Below, one piece after another: positions 6,674-31,865 of a DNA stretch of 64,000 nucleotides. Both the position numbers and the translations under genes were made by a program. The stretch's first letter is position 1; every line of letters starts with the position of its first letter. Below the pieces are notes generated by a model, which saw nothing but the letters and a program-made list of their open reading frames with translations, was not told where the DNA came from and made no database searches. The stretch spans positions 705,818 through 769,817 of the forward strand of contig NC_090611.1 of the NCBI RefSeq assembly GCF_004359215.1, read 5' to 3'. Source of the stretch: Bremia lactucae (taxonomy: Eukaryota; Oomycota; Peronosporomycetes; Peronosporales; Peronosporaceae).

Positions 6674-8431
6674 CTACTCGATGCGCATCAGATCACGAAG
6701 CCTTGTAAGTTTCGCCGCATCGTGGGCCTTCGTCATCAGGTCCGCAAGCATCACTTCAGACCTCAAATAGTGCGCAGCGATCACACCGCGGCGCGAGAAA
6801 TCGCATAAAAACTTGAACCGTACGTCGATGTGTTTGGCCTTCATCGACGATGCTTCGCCGGAAATCTGACTTATAGCCGCTTGATTGTCCACGTAGAGCT
6901 TCATTGGCAGTGCTGGTGACATGCCGATCTCGCTAAGCAGCTCTCGCAGCCCGAGCAGGTCACGCGCCATCTCCGAGGCAGCGACAAATTCAGCTTCCAT
7001 CGTCGAAAGGGAAACTCCACCTTGTTTTCGAGCTCCCCAACTCACCGCCATACCGTTCAGCCGCAGCACGCCACCTGTCATCGACTTCATTTCGCCCTTG
7101 TCTCCAGCAAAATCAGCGTCGCTAAATGCTTCCAGCTCCAAACCCTGATATTGTTCTTGACCTGGCGACATCGTTATCTTCAAGCTTGCGGTACCCTTCA
7201 GGTACCGAGCAATCCTTTTAGCGAGCTTCCAGTCAATCACTTGCGGTGCATGAGTCTGTCTTGTAGCCTTGTGCACAGCGAACGCGATGTCCGGCCGTGT
7301 GCAACGCGCAATCCACAGCAAACTCCCGACAAGCGACTGAAAACTGCGGACCGTTGGGCCAGTGCCTGCACTTGTAGATCCAAGCAGCTCCACGTCGTCC
7401 GGTGGTATGTCGTAACAGTCGTTGCCAATAGGCGCGCGCGTCGAATTTGCTTCTGCCAGCCCATTGGTCCGAAGTAGATCAGCGATCGCCCCCTCTTGGT
7501 CCAGTGTGTATTTGCCTGTATCATTTAAATTAACCCGCATACCCAAAAATTTACTTACGCGTCCCAGATCCTTGATCGATAGTGACGACAGACTTTCGAA
7601 AAGTCGCTCGACTGCTTCCACACTTGTTCCCGTCGCCATAAGGTCGTCCACATAAACGCCCACAACCACGAGATCTTCGTCTTCCTTTTTCCAATAGAAA
7701 CACACATCGCTTTCACAGCGCATAAAACCTGCCTCGACGAGGCGCTTGTGATGCAGCTGACTCCATAGACGACCGGCCTGCTTTAGCCCATATAGGCTCG
7801 TCCGTAGTTCCAGTACTAAATCCTTTTCACTTTCCGCGTCTTGTTCACGCATGGTCTTTGCAGATATCGTCATTCCTTGTGGCACATGTAGATATATCTG
7901 TAGATGCTCCTCCTTGTCCGCCTTGACATATGCATTGGGGATGTCGCCGTGCTTTGCAGGCACCCCCCATATGGCCGCAAGCGCTAATATGACCTTCACT
8001 GTTGATAGGTCCATCACGGCGGCGAACGTGAGACTGTAGTCGACTCCTTGGACCTGTTCATTGCCGCAAGCAACGAGGCGCGCCTTCAGTCGCTCGACCT
8101 TGCCTTGTGCGTCTGTCTTGGTCTTGATTACCCACTTGGTATGCAAGGCGTTTAAGCCAGGCGCGCGCTTGACTACTTGCCAGACTTTATTATTCTGAAG
8201 TGCTTCGACTTCTTCTTCCATAGCCTTGACCCATCCATCGCGATTCGCACTTCGCATAGCTTCACTGTAATTGGTCGGATCTTTGTCAAAAATAGCATTT
8301 ACGACTCCGCCGCTTGACTTCGACTCCTCCTGGAGTGCTACCGCCTGCGCGCTTCGATGCGCCGCGCGTTCCATAAGCGGACCGCGTCCACTTCTTCGTG
8401 CTTTTCTTTCGTGTACCCACATTGGCAGCAC
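6674..8431 (-). CDS. Copia reverse transcriptase and RNase H (copy B)
   Basis: 585 residues from the first Met, but as part of Pol the frame would be entered from the integrase frame upstream. It has the Copia RT start NNKVWQVV...KTKWVIKTK-type region (residues 80-105), the first catalytic Asp in HGDIPNAYVK (about 163), the LYGLKQAGRLW motif (213-223) and the catalytic YVDD (260-263). It ends with a Copia RNase H: SDADFAGD, the SMTGG segment, EAEFVAASE and DNQAAI. All motifs look intact. The protein would copy element RNA into DNA in cytoplasmic particles. It is out of frame with the integrase segment upstream. Confidence 0.93.
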   Translation of the reverse strand: MLPMWVHERKARRSGRGPLMERAAHRSAQAVALQEESKSSGGVVNAIFDKDPTNYSEAMRSANRDGWVKAMEEEVEALQNNKVWQVVKRAPGLNALHTKWVIKTKTDAQGKVERLKARLVACGNEQVQGVDYSLTFAAVMDLSTVKVILALAAIWGVPAKHGDIPNAYVKADKEEHLQIYLHVPQGMTISAKTMREQDAESEKDLVLELRTSLYGLKQAGRLWSQLHHKRLVEAGFMRCESDVCFYWKKEDEDLVVVGVYVDDLMATGTSVEAVERLFESLSSLSIKDLGRVSKFLGMRVNLNDTGKYTLDQEGAIADLLRTNGLAEANSTRAPIGNDCYDIPPDDVELLGSTSAGTGPTVRSFQSLVGSLLWIARCTRPDIAFAVHKATRQTHAPQVIDWKLAKRIARYLKGTASLKITMSPGQEQYQGLELEAFSDADFAGDKGEMKSMTGGVLRLNGMAVSWGARKQGGVSLSTMEAEFVAASEMARDLLGLRELLSEIGMSPALPMKLYVDNQAAISQISGEASSMKAKHIDVRFKFLCDFSRRGVIAAHYLRSEVMLADLMTKAHDAAKLTRLRDLMRIE

Positions 8432-10043
8432 TTGTGTTGCTTCCTTTTGCTTGTCTTGGGGCGGGTGTCGTCACATCCTTATCCTGCTCCACCGTCGCTT
8501 GCTGCAGCTGCGCGTTCTGTGCTTCAGACAGAGTGTCGATATCCTTGACGTGCTGAGTCACGATCACCTTGTTCTCCTTGCGTAGATAAACCTTGTAGCC
8601 CTTGGTTTCTTCACTTATCCCCACTATCGTGGCAAGTTGTGCGCGCTGCTGTAGTGAATTTTTGCTTGGGTCGCGATACACGCTACACGTGGAGCCGAAA
8701 ACAACGATCTTGCGCAGATCCGGCATCTTTCCCGTCAACACCTCAAGTGGAGACGCTCTCTTAGCGTTTGCGCGCGTAGGGCTGCGATTCAGTATATACG
8801 AGGCGTACTGAACCTCATCTCCCCAAAAATGAAATGGTAGACCGCACGCAAACATCATGCTTCGTGCCAAATTAAGCACCGTCCTGTGCATCCGTTCCGC
8901 CTTGCCATTTGAAGCTTGGTTTCCAGCTTCCGACACTTGCCTTGTCACCCCGGTCCTTTTACAAAAGAGGTCTATGTTGGCGTATTCTCCACCACCGTCT
9001 GTCCTTAGCACGTGGATTCGGCAGTTGAAACGCTTTTCAAAAAGAACGAGGAAAGCCTCAAACTGTTTAGCCGCCACGTCCTTTGTTCTTGCGAGAAATA
9101 TCCGGCAGTAATTCGACTTGTGATCGACGAAATTAACCAAATAACGGTTTCCGAGCCTATCCTGTGGCGTCATTGGACCTTTCAAATCCGAACAGATGAC
9201 TCCACCGACTCTGTCAATGGGCGCGTTGAAACCACTGTCCGTCTGGTTTTGGGAGTTTCGCGTCTGTTTACCCTCCATGCACGAAACGCACGCCATGCGC
9301 TTGCTGCTCGTCAGCCTTATCCCTGAGGCTGGGTCTCGAGCCATGCGCTCAATGGTGTCGAATGCCAGATGCCCGAAACGCTGATGGAAATGTAAAAGCG
9401 TCCTTACTTGCACATCGCTCGTAACATCTGCGCTCGCACTTGATTCGAGCACGGCCATTATAGTATCACATGTGTCCTGTCGCCCCTTCTTCGCTGATAT
9501 TTTATCGTATAAAACGTTTCTTCCCATCTCAACGTCAAACACGACAGCGCCGTCGCTGCGCCGTTCAAGTGCACGCCCCTTCAAATCGTAGACAAGAGCA
9601 AAGCCTTTTCTTTCCAGCTTGCCATACGAAACGATGTTCTTTGACAATCTCCGCGCCAGGTAAACATCAGTAAGCACCACTGTGCTCTCCATACCACGAG
9701 CCACCACCTTAAGGCGCACGCTCCCAACACTCGTCAGTTTCAACGTCTTTCCATCAGCCATCGCTATCTCTTCGCTGCATGTGGCAGAATCGAAAAGCAA
9801 CTTCTCGTCATTCACGAGATGTCGACTGGCGCCGCTGTCGAGAATCCAGTCACTATCATCGTAGTCATCCGACTCGCACACCGCAAGTACCATCTCACGC
9901 TTGCTCTTTTTGCCACGCTTTAGTTTCTTCGCTCCTTCATTCTTGTTCTTTTCGCTCAGTGCGAGCACCATACCTCCACCTGCCTTGTCCTCTTTCGGCC
10001 TTCCACTTCGTATTTTGCCCTTAGAGCGACAGTCAGCTTGCAC
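8286..10043 (-). CDS. Copia protease and integrase (copy B)
   Basis: 585 residues from the Met at 10043. The frame is open further upstream to about 10135 and there encodes a CCHC zinc knuckle ([14 protein letters not shown]), so the listed Met is probably not a real start. Protease motif DSGAS is at 69-73, followed by integrase HHCC, GKQTR and the D-D-E core with NGKAER. It ends in a stop at 8286-8288 while the RT frame, open since before 8431, overlaps it in another frame. Identical to copy A. Confidence 0.92.
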
Positions 10044-11209
10044 GTGACCGACCTTGCCGCATGCATAGCAGGTGCGCGTGTCCTTACGCTTTGGTTCAAC
10101 ATGAGCAGCGACGACTTCACGTCCAATTGCTCCGCTTCCAAGCTCGATTGACTAGGCAAATGCGCCAGCGCTTCTGCATGTCGAAGATAGTCGACACGCG
10201 TCGGGTCGTACTTGGCCCGCATTACGTTCATAAGCTCGGGCGATGCGTGGTGCACGATGTTATCTAGGACGAGTGAGTCCGTACCACCACGTGCGTCGCT
10301 TACAGCAACCATGTATAGGTAGTGCTCTGCCCATGTGCGCTTAAAATCTTTCTTTTGCATGAACAGTTCCATCGCCTGGCTAGCCGTAATAGACGTCTTG
10401 AATGTTGCAAGTAGCTGGCAAATAACATAGTCCAGCGTCGGATGCTGGTTCCACCACGTGTCTACCTGTTTGTGGTAGTAACGCTCAGCCGTTCCGCTGA
10501 GGTAGTGACCAAGCTGGTCAACCTTAACGTCCTCACTCCAGGTGAAACCGCACGAGGACTCAGCCAGGTTGACAGCGCGCAAAAACGTGTGCCCCCAGTT
10601 GAGGAACCCAGAGCCTAGTCCCTTATAGAGTTCAGTCCCGTCAAATTTCTGAATCGACAGCTTGCGCTGACTCGCATTCGGTGTCGCATAGAATGCTGCT
10701 GCATTAGGAGCTTGCCCCGATGGTGCTGGTCCATCTGCTGGACGCGGTACCGCGCCGGGAGTCGGAGCATGCGCCCGTGCCGGCGCGAAAGACGCAAAAA
10801 TGGACTCTTCAATCTCGGGCTCACGTGCGCGCGGTGGCCGTGCGACCGGCTTACGCTCAGGCGAGTCCGTGAGCGCGTCGATGGTCATCGGTCTTGCCCG
10901 CGCGTTAGCACCAAACGCTGATGAAAACATCCCGCTCTCTACAGCACCCATCATTCTCTCTTGATCTTCACGATCGCGCTGGGACGACTCCATCTTCTCC
11001 ATGCGGTTGGTCAGAGCGACGAGGGCCGCGAGAATCTTGTCGTCTGTTGCCGAGCTCCTTTCGCGAGCTGGCGAGTCTTCAACGGTTGCGGCAGCACGTG
11101 CGGACGAGGCAACGCGCGCCGGCGAAGCACCGCGGGCCGGCGAGGCCATTGCGTGACCTGCTGGTGCCGGTGGAGGCCTCGTGTCGGTTGTCTTAGCTGT
11201 TGGGCTCAT
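9956..11209 (-). CDS. Copia Gag (copy B)
   Basis: 417 residues from ATG 11209-11207, which lies within the primer binding site only 4 nt from the 5' LTR. The N-terminus is Pro/Ala/Arg-rich, then comes a capsid-like domain ([19 protein letters not shown] onward). The zinc knuckle expected at the C-terminus is not in this frame but in the pol frame (about 10080-10035), so Gag proper appears to need a -1 shift around LDVKSS (near 10130). The last 60 or so residues of this frame are therefore probably off-frame. Confidence 0.88.
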
Positions 11210-19855: not shown

Positions 19856-22800
19856 ATGGAAGCTCAGCAGACAAAGGTTCGCCACTTCTACCTACCCCTC
19901 TTATATTAGATAAGATTGTATCTAATTCTTATTGTATTTAAATCGAATAGATCTATGTTCCCGACCCGAAGGTAAGCTGGGTCGAGGCCTCCATTACCAA
20001 AGGCCACGTCGTCAGTGAAAATACCATCGAAGTCGTGATCGAAGGCGATATCGCTGAGGAAAATGCGTCGAACCAGCCCGAAGCTGGCTCCATCCGTAAA
20101 ATCGACGTACGCTTGCTTCTTTCTCCTTAATTTATGGCTATGTGTGTGTACCCATCTGACTGTCGAATATGCATCTATTTACGATGGGCTTAGAAATCCA
20201 CGATGCTACTGCAAAACGAACTTATGTCTGACGACGGATGCGCGGATATGGTGAGTCTGAACTATCTGCACGAGCCGGCCATATTATTCAATCTTAAGCA
20301 TCGATTTTTGCGTCGAATTCCTTACACATACACTGGCGCTATTTGCATTGCTGTCAACCCAGTACGTAATGCCTATTGCGTTAGCCTATTGACTCTATAA
20401 CCTAATATTTCGAACTGTGGTGCTTGTTTTTTTTTTAATTCAAGTATTCATGGCTCGATATTTATACAAAAGCGCTCCAGGAGCAATACATGGAGCGCGA
20501 TCGCAGTGAACTACCTCCCCACGTATACGCCACAAGTGCTGGGGCGTTTCAACACATGCGCATTTTTGGTGAGAACCAAAGTATTCTCGTTAGTGGTGAA
20601 TCAGGAGCTGGAAAGACCGAGACTACTAAAATTTTAATGTCTCACTTGGCTTCCGCGGGTAGCCATTCTACATCGGATGCTCAAGCGAAGGAGGCGAATA
20701 TTATTGAGCGTGTATTAGATGCAAATCCATTGATGGAGTCGTTCGGTAATGCCAAGACTTCGCGCAATGACAATTCCAGTCGATTTGGCAAATTCTCAGA
20801 ATTGCAATTTGACGCCCTTGGCCAACTAATTGGCGCTCGCTCCCGCACATATTTGCTGGAAAAATCTCGGGTATCCCTTCAAGGGTTGGGAGAACGCAAT
20901 TACCACATTTTCTACCAATTGCTTGCCGCCCCGGCGGATGTGACAACAGAGATTAAAGTAACTGGCCTCCAAGCGAAAGACTTTATGTTTATTAAGCCCC
21001 ACGAAGAAGATATAGAGAATGGAATTGACGTTAGTGCTGGTATGAAAGACGCCGAGCGGTTTCAACAGACAGTGTCGTGCCTTGAGACCATGGGAGTGTC
21101 TAAGGAGGACCAACGGAGCATTTTCAAGGTGGTGGCGGCAATTTTGCATTTATCTTGCTTGCAATTTGAATCGATGCCTGGTAACGAAGACGCGTCCCAG
21201 CTTACGGGCACGCCTGAGAACCAACAGGCAAGTGAGCTCGTGTCGCACTTGCTTGAACTCGACGACAACCAGTTGCAAACAGCGCTTTGTACTCGTGAAA
21301 TGACAGCTGTTGCCGATACGTATGAAGTCCCGCTTAACGTCTCGCAAGCTGAAGGAGCTCGCACGGCGCTTGGTGTCGCGCTTTACTCACATATGTTTTC
21401 GTGGCTCATTCATCGTGTCAATGTATCCACAAGTGCCGCTGCTGCTGATGTGGCCCACAAAATTTGCATATTGGATATTTTTGGTTTTGAGATTTTTGAG
21501 AAAAACTCGTTTGAGCAACTTTGTATCAATTACGCCAACGAGAAGCTTCAGCAGAAGTTTACACAAGATGTTTTCAAGTCTATACAGCAAGAGTATGAAG
21601 ACGAAGGCATTCCGTGGACACGCATTGAGTTTGCGGATAATGTCAATGTCCTTTCACTGCTGGAAGGGCGCTTTGGCGTCTTGTCGTTGTTAAATGAAGA
21701 GTGTATGCGTCCAAAAGGCAGTGATGCAGCATTTGCTAACAAGCTGAAAGCGCATTACAGCGATAATGACCGCTTTGAGTGCCCACGTTTTGCTCGTGAT
21801 GCGTTTGTCATTAAACATTATGCTGGTCCCGTGCAGTACGATACGATGGGATTCCTAATTAAGAATACCGATGCACTTCAGAACGACCTCATTATATTGA
21901 TAAAGAAATCAAGAGCTCCTTTTTTGAAGAAGCTCTTTCCAGACGAGCATGTAGGTGACGCGATGACGGGAATTCCTGGCACTGCTGCGTTAGCTGCTAC
22001 GAGCGCACTGCGGGGACGTTCTATGCTAAAGCGCAAGAACTCTATTGTTGCGGATACAGTGGGCACGCAATTCAAGAGCCAGTTAAATGGCCTTATGGAA
22101 GACATTCGCCGCACGAATGTCCATTACATTCGTTGCATCAAACCTAATGGCAAAAAGAGCCCTCTGGTGTTTAACAAGCTTCGGGTGACGGAGCAGCTTC
22201 AGTGCGCTGGTGTAGTCGAAGCGGTGCGAATAAGTCGAATGGCTTATCCCAATCGTGTGCTACAGACCATGTTCCTCGAGCGTTTCCGCGGCGTGGCTTC
22301 ATCAAGTACTGCATCTTCGGCTCTTGCTGGGTTGACTGCTTCTGTCGATGAAAATCCAAGCGATGACGAGAAAATTGCGGCTGCTGTCCGCGAGTTGCTT
22401 GCCAACTTGATGCCAGGCAAAATGAACGAGTACGAAATTGGTAAGACACGTGTATTTTTTCGCCAAGGCGCACTTGAAGGACTCGAAGAGCTGCGTACGC
22501 GTAAATTTAATGCTGCAGCTGTAGTCCTGCAGCGCTATGCTAAGAAATGGATGGCCATGGCAATGTTTCAACGGGTGAAAGAGGCTACGCTAGTTGTTCA
22601 GAAAGTGTTTCGAGGACATCGAGCAATGGCTCAGTACAAGAGCCAGCGCATGGCCGCTATTAGCGTTCAAAAGTACGTGCGTCGCCACTGTGCGCGCCAG
22701 CTATTGGTGCACATGCGTGAAGAGTATCGAGCAACTAAGATTCAAAATGTTTGCAAGATGTTTGTCGCCCGTCGTCAGTACTTGGTGAAAATTAAAGCCA

Positions 22801-24524
22801 TCCGTACAATGCAGAGCGTCGTGCGTATGCACTTGGCTGTCAAGGCTTTTTCGGGACTACAAAAGCAAGCAAAAGAAGACGCCAAGTTAGAGAATCAGAT
22901 TCAATTGCTGAAGAAACGTCTGCAACAGGAGCGAGAAGCTCGTATTGAGCTTGAACAACAAGCACAACACGGTAGCCGTGCGTCCGTGCACATGCGTAGC
23001 GAGGAGGCACTTGAGGATGCGGATCTCGTGATTGATCAGCTCCGTCGTGAAAATGCTGCATTGAAAGATGCGAATACAAACTTGAAAGCTTTTGGCGTAC
23101 AGCTTCGCAAGGAAAAAGATGTGATGGAGCGTGGAGCGTACGTGAACGGTGCATCCTTTGCCGCTGCGAACCAACGTGCGACGAAATTGCAGGATGAAAA
23201 TGAAGTCTTAAAGAGCGAACTTGCTCGATACAAGACGGGTCATCGGAATTTGAAGGCTCAGCACGCGGGTGTAATGGAGAAGATATCACTCATGCAGAGT
23301 TCGTTAAGCGAAGCGCTGAACGAACGTCAGGCGCTTCGCCATACTGTGGATCATTTGAAACAACATACCGAGCATTTGCAGGGGGAAAACATGGCGCTTG
23401 CCAAGGCGAATGCTCGACTTCGTTTGATATTGCGTCAGGATCCTGAGCTTAGCCGAAAGCACCGCGAAGAGGTTCCTCGCCTTACAAAGCTAGCGCTGTC
23501 ATCAAAGCAGCCACAGCAGATTGGGACGGTATACAAAACCACAGCCGCTCCATCTAAAGCAATCGAGCTTTCAGAACTGTCGGTAGGCATGCGCACGCTG
23601 TCAACGTTACAGCCGCCGACGCCTCCTATGGAAAATACCATTTCGATTACTCAGCCAATGACGACACCAATTAAGCGTGCTAACTCGCTGTCCATCCGAA
23701 AACTTTCTCATGAGAGTCACAAGTCAATACGGGTCGTTAACATCCGTGAATTATCAAGTGCAGGCCCCGAAGAGGAGCCCGCAGTGCTTGTCTCGTCACC
23801 TACTGACGAGGCTGCAGGCGAACGGTTGTCGTTTGCTGAGGTGATCAAGGGCCGGGACCGTCGCTCTTCGTCAATCTCAAGCACAGGTTCATCTTCGGAA
23901 TCTCAGGCTCCGATCGCTACTTGTACGAATATTCGTCAACCAACAGGCGAAGATGGTCCGCTCGAGTCTCCAGCAAAGGTGATGGGAATTGTATTAGAAG
24001 GCGAGTCCGAGGACAGTACTGACCGCGTAAGCTTTAGTGTGACGCTCGCCGTTGACATGTTGGATGATGCAAAGCAGCAGCAAAACCAGCGCTTGTCCCT
24101 TACTGGCGCTACTCTGATCGCTAAACAAGGGACCAACAATGTCGCAGGGAAGTCCAAGGGTCGCTCCCGTCGCAGCTCGTACGACCGCGCCGATAATGGC
24201 GAGAATCGACGCAGTGCTTCATCACGGCAGTCGTTTTCAGGCAGTATGGAAGGAAGTCGCACGAATCGACACTCGTACGATTCGTATGGGGGTAATAACG
24301 ATGGCTTGCGGAATTCTTCTTTACGACAGTCGCTCACGGGGGGCGGCCACCACAATGGAGGCAATCACCACAATAATGGAAACCATTACAATGGGAACAA
24401 TCGCGGACGTACTCGTCGCGGATCATATGACCGCAACGGTGGCTACAAGAGTCGACCTACGAGTGACACGATGAGCAATGCAAGCAACAGCAGCGGTGGC
24501 GGCGGTAAGCGCATTGAGCTGTAA
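19856..24524 (+). CDS. Unconventional myosin heavy chain
   Basis: Four exons: 19856-19876, 19951-20106, 20194-20361 and 20445-24524 (4425 bp, 1474 aa); introns are 74, 87 and 83 bp and all phase 0. The first exon codes seven residues (MEAQQTK). Motor domain to about residue 795: start DMVSLNYLHEPAILFNL, P-loop GESGAGKTET (166-175), switch I NDNSSRFGKF, switch II DIFGFEIFE, actin-loop region HYIRCIKPN, and converter GKTRVFFRQGALE. About five or six IQ-like motifs follow (roughly 800-915), then coiled coil (920-1115), then a long Ser/Arg/Asn/Gly-rich tail without a FYVE, PH or MyTH4 domain. It moves along actin; the class is uncertain, and stramenopiles have their own myosin classes. The tail has three imperfect R-R-x-S-Y-D repeats. 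Confidence 0.95.
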
Positions 24525-29071: not shown

Positions 29072-31865
29072 ATGAGCAGCGCGAATGGACAGACGATCAC
29101 TGTTTGTGGCAACGTCTTTCGGTGCGTATGGCAAGGCAATTTCATCCTTTTCAAAATGTCTCGAAAGCTTGTGTACCCAGCTAAACTTGGACTAAAATGT
29201 TGCATAATCTGATACAGCTTGGTCGAAATGATCGGCCGTGGCTCGTACGGCACCGTACGGCGTAAATTTTTTTGGGATTTGGTTCAACTTAAGTGACAAA
29301 ATGCCTCCTGATGGTTAACATTGACGTTGTAGGTGCATAAAGCAATCAATCTGTCCTCCGGAGCTGCTGTGGCCGTCAAGATGATTGGCAAGGAAAAATT
29401 GCGTCGGCCGCATGAGCGTCAAAGCATTGAAAAAGAAATTGAAACTATGCGCGTGGCCGTGGAACAGTTTGAGAATGGTCATCCCCACATTGTACGTCTG
29501 TTGTGCACCAAAGAGTCGCAGCAACACATATTTATTGTGCAGGTTAGTATCCACTCTTAAATATGAAGTGGCAACGATAGTCTTTTTACAATTATTTTTT
29601 GTAGGAATACTGTGCAGGTGGAGATATTGCCCAACTTATGAAGACCACCGATGGGTTGACAGAGACGCAAGCGAGGCTTTATATGTCGCAGTTGGGTACG
29701 TGGTAACGGCTAATGAAAGTGACAAAGACTCTTTTTTTAAGCTGTGGCGTGTGGATAAAGCGTCAGGATTGCAGTTTCTTCGGTCGCAAAATGTAGTACA
29801 TCGTGACCTCAAACCGGCCAATTTATTGCTATCATCTCGTAATCCTGCAACAGCCAAGTTAAAAATTGGCAAGTAGAAAATTAGTTGCAAACATATTCTA
29901 ACATCATGACCTCTGACAGTCTTGTAGCGGATTTTGGGTTTGCACGTGAGTTAGAATCAGAAATGATGGCCGAGAGTGTTGTGGGGTCGCCGCTTTACAT
30001 GGCACCAGAGCTTTTGGAATACAAATGCTATGATGCCAAAGCAGACTTGTGGTCAGTTGGGATTATCCTGTACGAGATGCTGGCGAACGAGCATCCGTTT
30101 CTTGTCGTTGATAAAGTCCACGCAACCAATCATCTTGCTCTGCGTCGAAATATATATCGCTACTATGAATGCTTTGGCCACGTTCGCTTTCCAAAGAAAA
30201 TCAAGGTTTCTCTCGAGTGTGAGCAGCTTGTGGCAGCGCTATTGCAGGTCGATCCTCGCAAACGCATTTCGTTCGAAGATTATTTCCGAGCTCCGTTCTT
30301 GTTGCCTCCTGCTCCGTCAGACACTGACTTGCCCTTTGACACCGCGGGTTTGGATAGCTCGGAGACCAAGCAGCCACTTGTTGCTGAAAAACAAACGGAA
30401 TATGGTATGTTTGTATTGTAAGTTTTTATATATAAGTTGATTAAAATTGTGTTTTGTGAAGAGGATTGGGCGACCTTTAGTGACGAGTATGTAATGGTTG
30501 AAAGCGAATACGAAGACGTAGGACGAAAGGTTTTAAACAGCCAGGACCTTAACGTGGATTTGGATGCCAAGGTTAGGATTACTTGAAAACTATGTTTGAC
30601 TCTTTAGGGACCTTGCGAATATCCTCTTACATTGAATGTCGTCATGACAATGTAGCCAAAGCACCACACGAAGGAGTATATTCCTGAACGTGACTCAGGC
30701 TCCACCTTATGTGACGGTGGCATTGAGATCCGAGACATTGTCATTGATACGTCGTCCCCTCGACACGGAGGACCTGAAGCTGAAACGGCAAGATCTCCTG
30801 TTTTAAACACGCTGGAAGTGAAAGCAGGTATGATAGAACGCAACGCGAATGCAACAATGCCAAAAGACCATTGGCTCATTGGCGAGCGCCGCCAATGGGT
30901 CACGGATGACAATCGCCTTGAAGAGTTGCTGGGTATATGCTACAAGAGCTTTACTTGTGGCAGCGTGGCTCTATTCGTGCCTACGCCATTTGGAGACTAT
31001 ATTGCATTTCACGAAGGGTGTCCCCACTACTACTTGTCAGAGGAATCTATAGTTGCTTCTAAAAAACACGACAGGTACGTTCAAGTTCACCATCTCATGC
31101 CATGAAGCTGTACCGTTGTTCTTATAAGTTTATTTAATGTAGAAATCCGCCGTACGTTCTTGGCCACATTGTTTACATTGAAGACCATGAAACAAGTGAT
31201 GTGAGGCTGGCATTCTATTTCTTGTGTGTGTTCACAATAACTTATGGAATCTGTACTCGATGTATTATCGAATACTTTAGGAAAAAAATCCGTACTGTCT
31301 TCGTGAAGGGACCAAGTATCATGTAGCCTCGGTCACGCCTTTAGCAACTTCATCCCACAACGCAAATGGTAGTGTCGAGACGGCAGATAGCTCGGATGCA
31401 TCGCATGAATTGCCTCTCTCCCAAGTTCTGACAGGAAAAGCAGTGGTAACTGGTTATGAGGATGCTGGTCTGCATCAAGCTGAGAATGAATTAGGGTCCA
31501 CAGAGCACCAGCGAATATCATTTCGTAGTTTTCAGATTAGCTCGTTGGCATTATTTTTCCTCAAAGGAGGAAAACTGCCGTATGTAGCCTTTAACGATGG
31601 TGCTCCAAATTACTTCTTGGCAAACGAGTCGATTCAAGCAGCGACGTTAGGTGTTGGAAGTGATCGTACGCCACCGGCTTACATTTGTGGAGAAATTATT
31701 TTTATCGATACTTTTCAGGCGACGGAGGTATGATCTGTGTAATTTTCATGGATGCTTGAGAGGCGCTTACGGTAACTGTGTATATCGCAGGATTTTAATC
31801 CCTATCGTCTATCGTACGGAACGCGATTCTATGTTGTGACAGTTGTTTATCCTACGAGAACATAA
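29072..31865 (+). CDS. ATG1/ULK-type autophagy kinase fused to two ATG11/FIP200 Claw-like domains
   Basis: Eleven exons reconstructed: 29072-29121, 29218-29254, 29333-29542, 29605-29695, 29761-29868, 29928-30404, 30462-30571, 30656-31074, 31143-31200, 31281-31727, 31791-31865; 2082 bp, 693 aa, all joins in frame. Kinase (about 17-290): GRGSYGTV loop, VAVK (K45), HRDLKPANLLL (D145), DFGFAR (D167), GSPLYMAPE and YDAKADLWSVG, the ATG1/ULK pattern. Residues 332-337 read DEYVMV, like the LIR of ULK1. About 456-540 and 600-690 are two related domains (CPHYYLSEESI ... NPYCLREGTKYHV; APNYFLANESI ... NPYRLSYGTRFYV) that resemble the C-terminal Claw of ATG11/FIP200. The usual ATG13-binding MIT pair is not recognisable. 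It should phosphorylate autophagy proteins and perhaps bind cargo receptors directly. Kinase identity is strong; the Claw call is by motif. Intron 5 is GC-AG. Confidence 0.88.
29869..29927 (+). other. GC-AG intron in the ATG1-like gene
   Basis: The 59-bp intron begins GCAAGT and ends TTGTAG, with a TTCTAAC branch-like site near 29906. Only this splice restores the invariant DFG motif (ATT-G|CG-GAT-TTT-GGG). The nearby GT (GTAGAA at 29873) cannot keep the frame. Confidence 0.82.

Follow-up and report, generated by a model that had tools for sequence, protein, structure and literature searches.

A predicted Bremia lactucae gene joining a ULK/ATG1-type kinase to two ATG11/FIP200-type Claw domains, present in addition to separate ATG1 and ATG11 genes

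In the organisms in which selective autophagy is understood, one protein recognises receptors (ATG11/FIP200) and another is the kinase (ATG1/ULK); it is still debated how the kinase is activated when a receptor binds. A gene of Bremia lactucae raises the question of whether the two can be built into one chain and, if so, whether such a chain stands in for the ordinary pair of proteins or is found beside it. The window, which is the whole 64,000 nucleotide stretch of DNA that was analysed, is contig C2 positions 705818-769817 of a genome sequence of 115.9 Mb in 220 contigs. Predicted splicing of 11 exons gives a continuous frame from an ATG at 29072 to a TAA at 31865, encoding 693 residues (Table 1). 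The initial annotation had described a read-through in frame from a complete kinase to two Claw-like domains, and this observation of an open frame containing a kinase and two Claws is confirmed. Nine of the ten introns are GT-AG and the other, intron 5, is GC-AG with the donor GCAAGT.

Table 1. Features of the kinase-Claw gene; positions are those of the window
Feature	Position	Strand	Basis
Whole gene, 11 exons, 693-residue Claw-kinase	29072..31865	+	Spliced open frame, Pfam
Exon 1, N-terminus	29072..29121	+	Spliced frame
Exon 2, glycine-rich loop GRGSYGT	29218..29254	+	Spliced frame
Exon 3, VAVK lysine	29333..29542	+	Spliced frame, motif check
Exon 4, kinase part	29605..29695	+	Spliced frame
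Exon 5, HRDLKP catalytic loop	29761..29868	+	Spliced frame, motif check
Intron 5, GC-AG, phase 1, directly before ADFG	29869..29927	+	Intron comparison
Exon 6, DFG, GSPLYMAPE activation segment, remaining kinase	29928..30404	+	Spliced frame, motif check
Exon 7, LIR-like DEYVMVE (residues 332-338)	30462..30571	+	Motif only
Intron 7, kinase/Claw join	30572..30655	+	Stops in every frame of a retained intron
Exon 8, linker and first part of Claw 1	30656..31074	+	Spliced frame, Pfam
Intron 8, phase 2, inside Claw 1	31075..31142	+	Intron comparison
Exon 9, middle of Claw 1	31143..31200	+	Spliced frame, Pfam
Intron 9, phase 0, directly before ..NPY of Claw 1	31201..31280	+	Intron comparison
Exon 10, Claw 1 end (NPYCLREGTKYHV), linker, most of Claw 2	31281..31727	+	Pfam, solved-structure match
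Intron 10, phase 0, directly before ..NPY of Claw 2	31728..31790	+	Intron comparison
Exon 11, Claw 2 end (NPYRLSYGTRFYVV) and stop	31791..31865	+	Pfam, solved-structure match

The C-terminal part was searched with the PF10377 (ATG11) profile, the check proposed in the initial annotation for its two ATG11/FIP200-type Claws. Scored separately, copy 1 reaches 56.5 bits and copy 2 reaches 66.9 bits, both above the Pfam cut-off of 22. Copy 2 has ten matches to solved sequences at E values up to 1, eight of which are FIP200 Claws (E 4.4e-8 to 1.2e-6), including one that is fused with a receptor peptide; the remaining two are unrelated (E 0.6-0.7). Copy 1 alone, compared with solved structures at E values up to 10, matches no FIP200 chain and only one unrelated chain, at 0.36. 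By BLASTP, copy 1 is 44% identical to the Claw of a separate ATG11 encoded elsewhere in the genome (E 1e-22), copy 2 is 38% identical to that same Claw (E 4e-18), and the two copies are 38% identical to each other (E 2e-20).

An alignment of these three Claws with FIP200 has 14 invariant columns, and the aromatic positions, the Y of NPY and the F/Y after GT, are kept. At the positions that we take to be K1569 and R1573 of FIP200, mapped by eye on the alignment, all three Claws have D/E and P, the separate ATG11 included. Binding of FIP200-type motifs therefore cannot be assumed, and the sequences suggest that ligand preference may differ from that of FIP200. A single-sequence fold model, made for an 83-residue piece of exon 10 only, has a mean pLDDT of 41, which is too low to carry meaning.

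The kinase domain extends over residues 17-290 (Pfam Pkinase, 226.2 bits), and a sequence check finds the catalytic motifs VAVK, HRDLKP, DFG and GSPLYMAPE all present. Among the best 60 of 1075 matches to solved structures, the highest are ULK3 (174.9 bits), ULK1 (166.5 bits) and ULK2 (153.9 bits), followed by SIK3 (139 bits). The genome's own ATG1, which is 40.9% identical to the fusion kinase over 281 residues, likewise has ULK3 as its best solved match. The fusion kinase has 132 matches in the genome, with loci for the best 30. Two of these are the window itself, one is ATG1 (entered as the spliced protein), and 27 are others; one refetched copy brought the latter to 28 rows and the dropping of three duplicates left 25 kinases. 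A tree of 29 rows was made from these 25 together with the fusion, ATG1, human ULK1 and human ULK3. The last four form one clade against the 25 kinases with support of 97/96, on a branch present in 98% of 200 bootstrap trees. Inside this clade support is weak, both for the pairing of the fusion with the genome's ATG1 (90/46) and for the placing of the fusion with ULK1 and ATG1 apart from ULK3 (91/69). By its sequence, the kinase can be assigned to the ULK/ATG1 family on the basis of the clade grouping and the intact catalytic motifs, in agreement with its original naming as an ATG1/ULK kinase. Roughly 100 remaining kinase matches, many of them single exons, are outside the tree, and therefore further ULK-type kinases are possible in this genome.

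The kinase and Claw parts meet at intron 7. A stop at the join to exon 8 (30656), which the initial annotation regarded as decisive against a fusion, is not there and the frame is open across the join. Plain retention of the intron was ruled out, because it has stops in every frame (3, 3 and 1, with 3 in the frame that read-through would use). Codon scores, trained on 4427 codons from five other genes, are positive on either side of the join, with means of 0.31 for residues 294-361 and 0.20 for residues 362-450; 500 random 60-codon windows from the flanks have a mean of -0.28 and a highest score of 0.12, in a comparison that favours the exons, these being stop-free by construction while flank windows and alternative frames are penalised for stops. 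The weakest segment of the gene is that of Claw 1, at -0.003, which is still higher than the stop-penalised values of its other forward frames (-0.24 and -0.58) and of the flank mean. In exon 8, 58 stop-free codons precede the first Met. Stop-free windows of this length make up 191 of 3655 overlapping windows in the flanks, and therefore the openness of exon 8 alone is moderate support only.

It could be supposed that splice prediction has wrongly merged two adjacent genes, one for a short ULK kinase and one for a small double-Claw protein. Such a merger would be compatible with a join that is predicted from the splicing of genomic DNA, with the intron 7 donor GTTAGG, and with the short end, VRIT and then a stop, that is read on beyond exon 7; but it would leave the second gene with no Met for 58 codons, a gap of just 84 bases from the first, and a coding score that is positive right from the join. 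Intron 7 is also a phase 0 intron, with an acceptor that coincides exactly with the start of the open frame in exon 8, so that two merged genes are a very unlikely source of this frame. That the fusion is the organism's sole ATG1/ATG11 module, as its domain content might be taken to indicate, is harder still to believe. The genome has a separate ATG1 with an MIT2 domain and a separate ATG11 with both an ATG17-like region and a Claw, as well as matches to ATG13 and ATG101, and the fusion as the only ATG1 was rejected on these grounds.

The separate ATG11 is encoded at C3:2679497-2676017 (-) in 12 exons and has 899 residues, with Pfam matches to ATG17_like (65.5 bits) and ATG11 (79.4 bits) and with one Claw. 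The separate ATG1, on contig C15, has 878 residues, a Pkinase match of 224.3 bits and an ATG1-like_MIT2 match (PF21127) of 33.6 bits, which passes the cut-off of 27.6; the score for MIT1 (PF12063) is only 12.2 bits. The ATG13 HORMA match lies within a 925-residue frame. ATG8 also has a profile match in the genome, and the NBR1-type Ig domain has two, one in a frame that also has PB1. The initial annotation had implied that the two-protein wiring was replaced, and this is not supported, a separate ATG1 and a separate ATG11 coexisting with the fusion; thus one molecule instead of two becomes one in addition to two. As judged from these sequences, the fusion is an extra Claw-bearing ULK kinase beside the ordinary machinery.

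Of the five PF10377 matches in the genome, two lie in the window, two belong to ATG11 and one is false. The last, C7:3289458-3289769, at first scored 27.5 bits and was rejected as a further ATG11 when a Tf2-1-like SH3 profile fitted better, with 40.9 bits; the frame scores 21.9 bits for ATG11, just below the cut-off of 22, and is the end of a retroelement integrase. False matches of PF10377 to the SH3-like end of Tf2-1-type integrases are a trap in searches for the ATG11 family. PF04108 (ATG17-like) has two genome matches below the cut-off, at the separate ATG11 and at C11:2819504 (25.9 bits), and also matched 4 of 14 prokaryote controls.

The initial annotation's remark that an ATG13-binding tail is not recognisable is supported. 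Among the 6 Pfam families listed for the 693-residue protein at E values up to 0.1 there is no MIT domain, and by Pfam the fusion protein does not have the C-terminal tandem MIT domains of ATG1/ULK1 proper. The PF12063 profile gave no match in the genome, but the controls also gave none, and therefore this genome result does not show absence. The ATG17-like scaffold region, present in the separate ATG11, is likewise absent from the Pfam matches of the fusion protein.

The tail between the kinase and Claw 1 has no Pfam domain, and its best matches to ATG1 and ATG11 (E 0.49 and 9.3) are not significant. It includes the sequence DEYVMVE, and the ATG1 paralogue has EYVLVDE at residues 501-507; the LIRs of ULK1 and yeast Atg1 are of the FVMV and YVVV types. 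When each tail was shuffled 5000 times, the tight pattern [DE][YFW]V.V[DE], picked after both sequences had been inspected, turned up in 10 shuffles for the fusion and in 6 for ATG1. The usual looser LIR pattern turned up in 1538 and 2296, respectively, and so the motifs are unusual only under the tight definition chosen post hoc. A phmmer search of solved structures with the LIR region as query gave no match.

Claw 1 and ATG11, Claw 1 and Claw 2, and the kinase and ATG1 are each linked by shared intron positions. Intron 5 has the same position and phase as the single modelled intron of the genome's ATG1, and intron 8, at an Arg in Claw 1, has the same position and phase in the separate ATG11. 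Introns 9 and 10 are each two residues before NPY and have no counterpart in ATG11. Homology thus supports several of the splice borders (introns 5, 8, 9 and 10). Claw 1, the closer of the two to ATG11, keeps the ATG11 intron, and Claw 2 has the intron that is Claw 1's own. The simplest order of events for these intron patterns would be that the C-terminus of ATG11 was joined onto a duplicated ATG1-like kinase, that a new intron then arose before NPY, that the Claw was duplicated in tandem inside the gene, and that copy 2 lost the ATG11-type intron. The Claw copies are just 38% identical and both are open, so the fusion is unlikely to be young, as far as the divergence of the two Claws can tell, and relatives should therefore have it. 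Searches for relatives gave no pattern match in viral contigs and 110 in bacterial and archaeal contigs, none of which was confirmed; these collections were not built to hold oomycetes, so the results say nothing about conservation.

We know of no described kinase-Claw protein, and such architectures may already stand in domain databases. The fusion resembles ATG1, ULK1 and ULK2 in its kinase clade, the GSPLYMAPE activation segment and the LIR-like motif in the tail, and shares with the genome's own ATG1 the intron before ADFG. It differs from them in having two Claws and no detected MIT/EAT tail. With ATG11/FIP200 (RB1CC1) it shares the C-terminal Claw (PF10377) and, in the case of the genome's ATG11, one intron; however, it has two Claws, no ATG17-like region is detected, and a kinase takes the place of the scaffold. 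ULK3 is similar in being the best solved match for the fusion kinase among the best 60 of 1075, but has MIT domains and is not known to have a Claw.

The gene probably encodes a second ULK/ATG1-family kinase with a built-in cargo-receptor reader, to judge from its predicted domains, with receptors recruiting the kinase directly through the tandem Claws. Two Claws per chain would supply the double grip that FIP200/ATG11 obtains through dimerising, so that receptors clustered on cargo would recruit and concentrate the kinase with no ATG11/ATG13 bridge, and the LIR-like motif would hold it on the ATG8-coated membrane. The fusion kinase would then initiate or strengthen the selective autophagy of certain cargo, and general autophagy would stay with the ordinary ATG1 complex. 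A more far-reaching form of this proposal, which is put forward tentatively, is that the linked Claws act as a pseudo-dimer that senses receptor clusters and switches on the ULK kinase, bypassing ATG11/ATG13, and that this arrangement has coexisted with the ordinary complex for much of the history of the lineage. Receptor binding, the pseudo-dimer, the ATG8 tether and kinase activation by clustering are what we infer from the domain content and the separate canonical set, for a gene known here from its genomic sequence.

Other functions can be envisaged for the same domains. ULK3 and Fused act outside autophagy, and the fusion could be a ULK3-like or other non-autophagy kinase whose Claws recruit non-autophagy partners. 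The top solved match being ULK3 and not ULK1 (among the best 60 of 1075) would fit this, though the same is true of the genome's ATG1; so would the deep divergence from ATG1 and the lack of a detected MIT tail for joining the ATG13 complex. Claws, however, are to our knowledge known only from autophagy scaffolds, EYVMV resembles the EYVLV of the genome's ATG1, and the tree puts the fusion with ULK1 and ATG1 apart from ULK3, if weakly (91/69), which together make a role outside autophagy rather unlikely. Less probable again is a decoy or regulator in which the tandem Claws would compete with ATG11 for receptors and the kinase would phosphorylate bound receptors, tuning their affinity and so restraining or timing selective autophagy. 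The same domains and the same undetected MIT tail would serve here, and this overlaps with the other readings, so that the likelihoods given to them need not sum to one.

A receptor-reading kinase of the kind preferred here, occurring naturally as one chain alongside the two-protein system, would offer a direct test of whether Claw clustering suffices to activate a ULK kinase. Searches that use the kinase only can take such a gene for a plain ATG1.

Elsewhere in the window, Copia-type retroelement copies, named from the look of their frames only, are found at 27-2743 and 6674-11209 (-). The frames at 27-1784 and 8286-10043 apparently encode the same 585 residues, and gag-like and reverse-transcriptase-like frames adjoin. 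A 1344 aa frame at 20490-24524 (+), also named from its look only, is myosin heavy-chain-like with a Gly/Asn/His-rich tail. A triosephosphate isomerase-GAPDH fusion (C11:3571835-3572551), which is a stramenopile marker, is present in one 608-residue frame; this is consistent with a stramenopile and fits the oomycete of the initial annotation. Two further triosephosphate isomerase matches of identical score, at C107:1431572-1432300 and 1436719-1437447, are approximately 5 kb apart and may reflect either a recent duplication in tandem or a repeat in the assembly.
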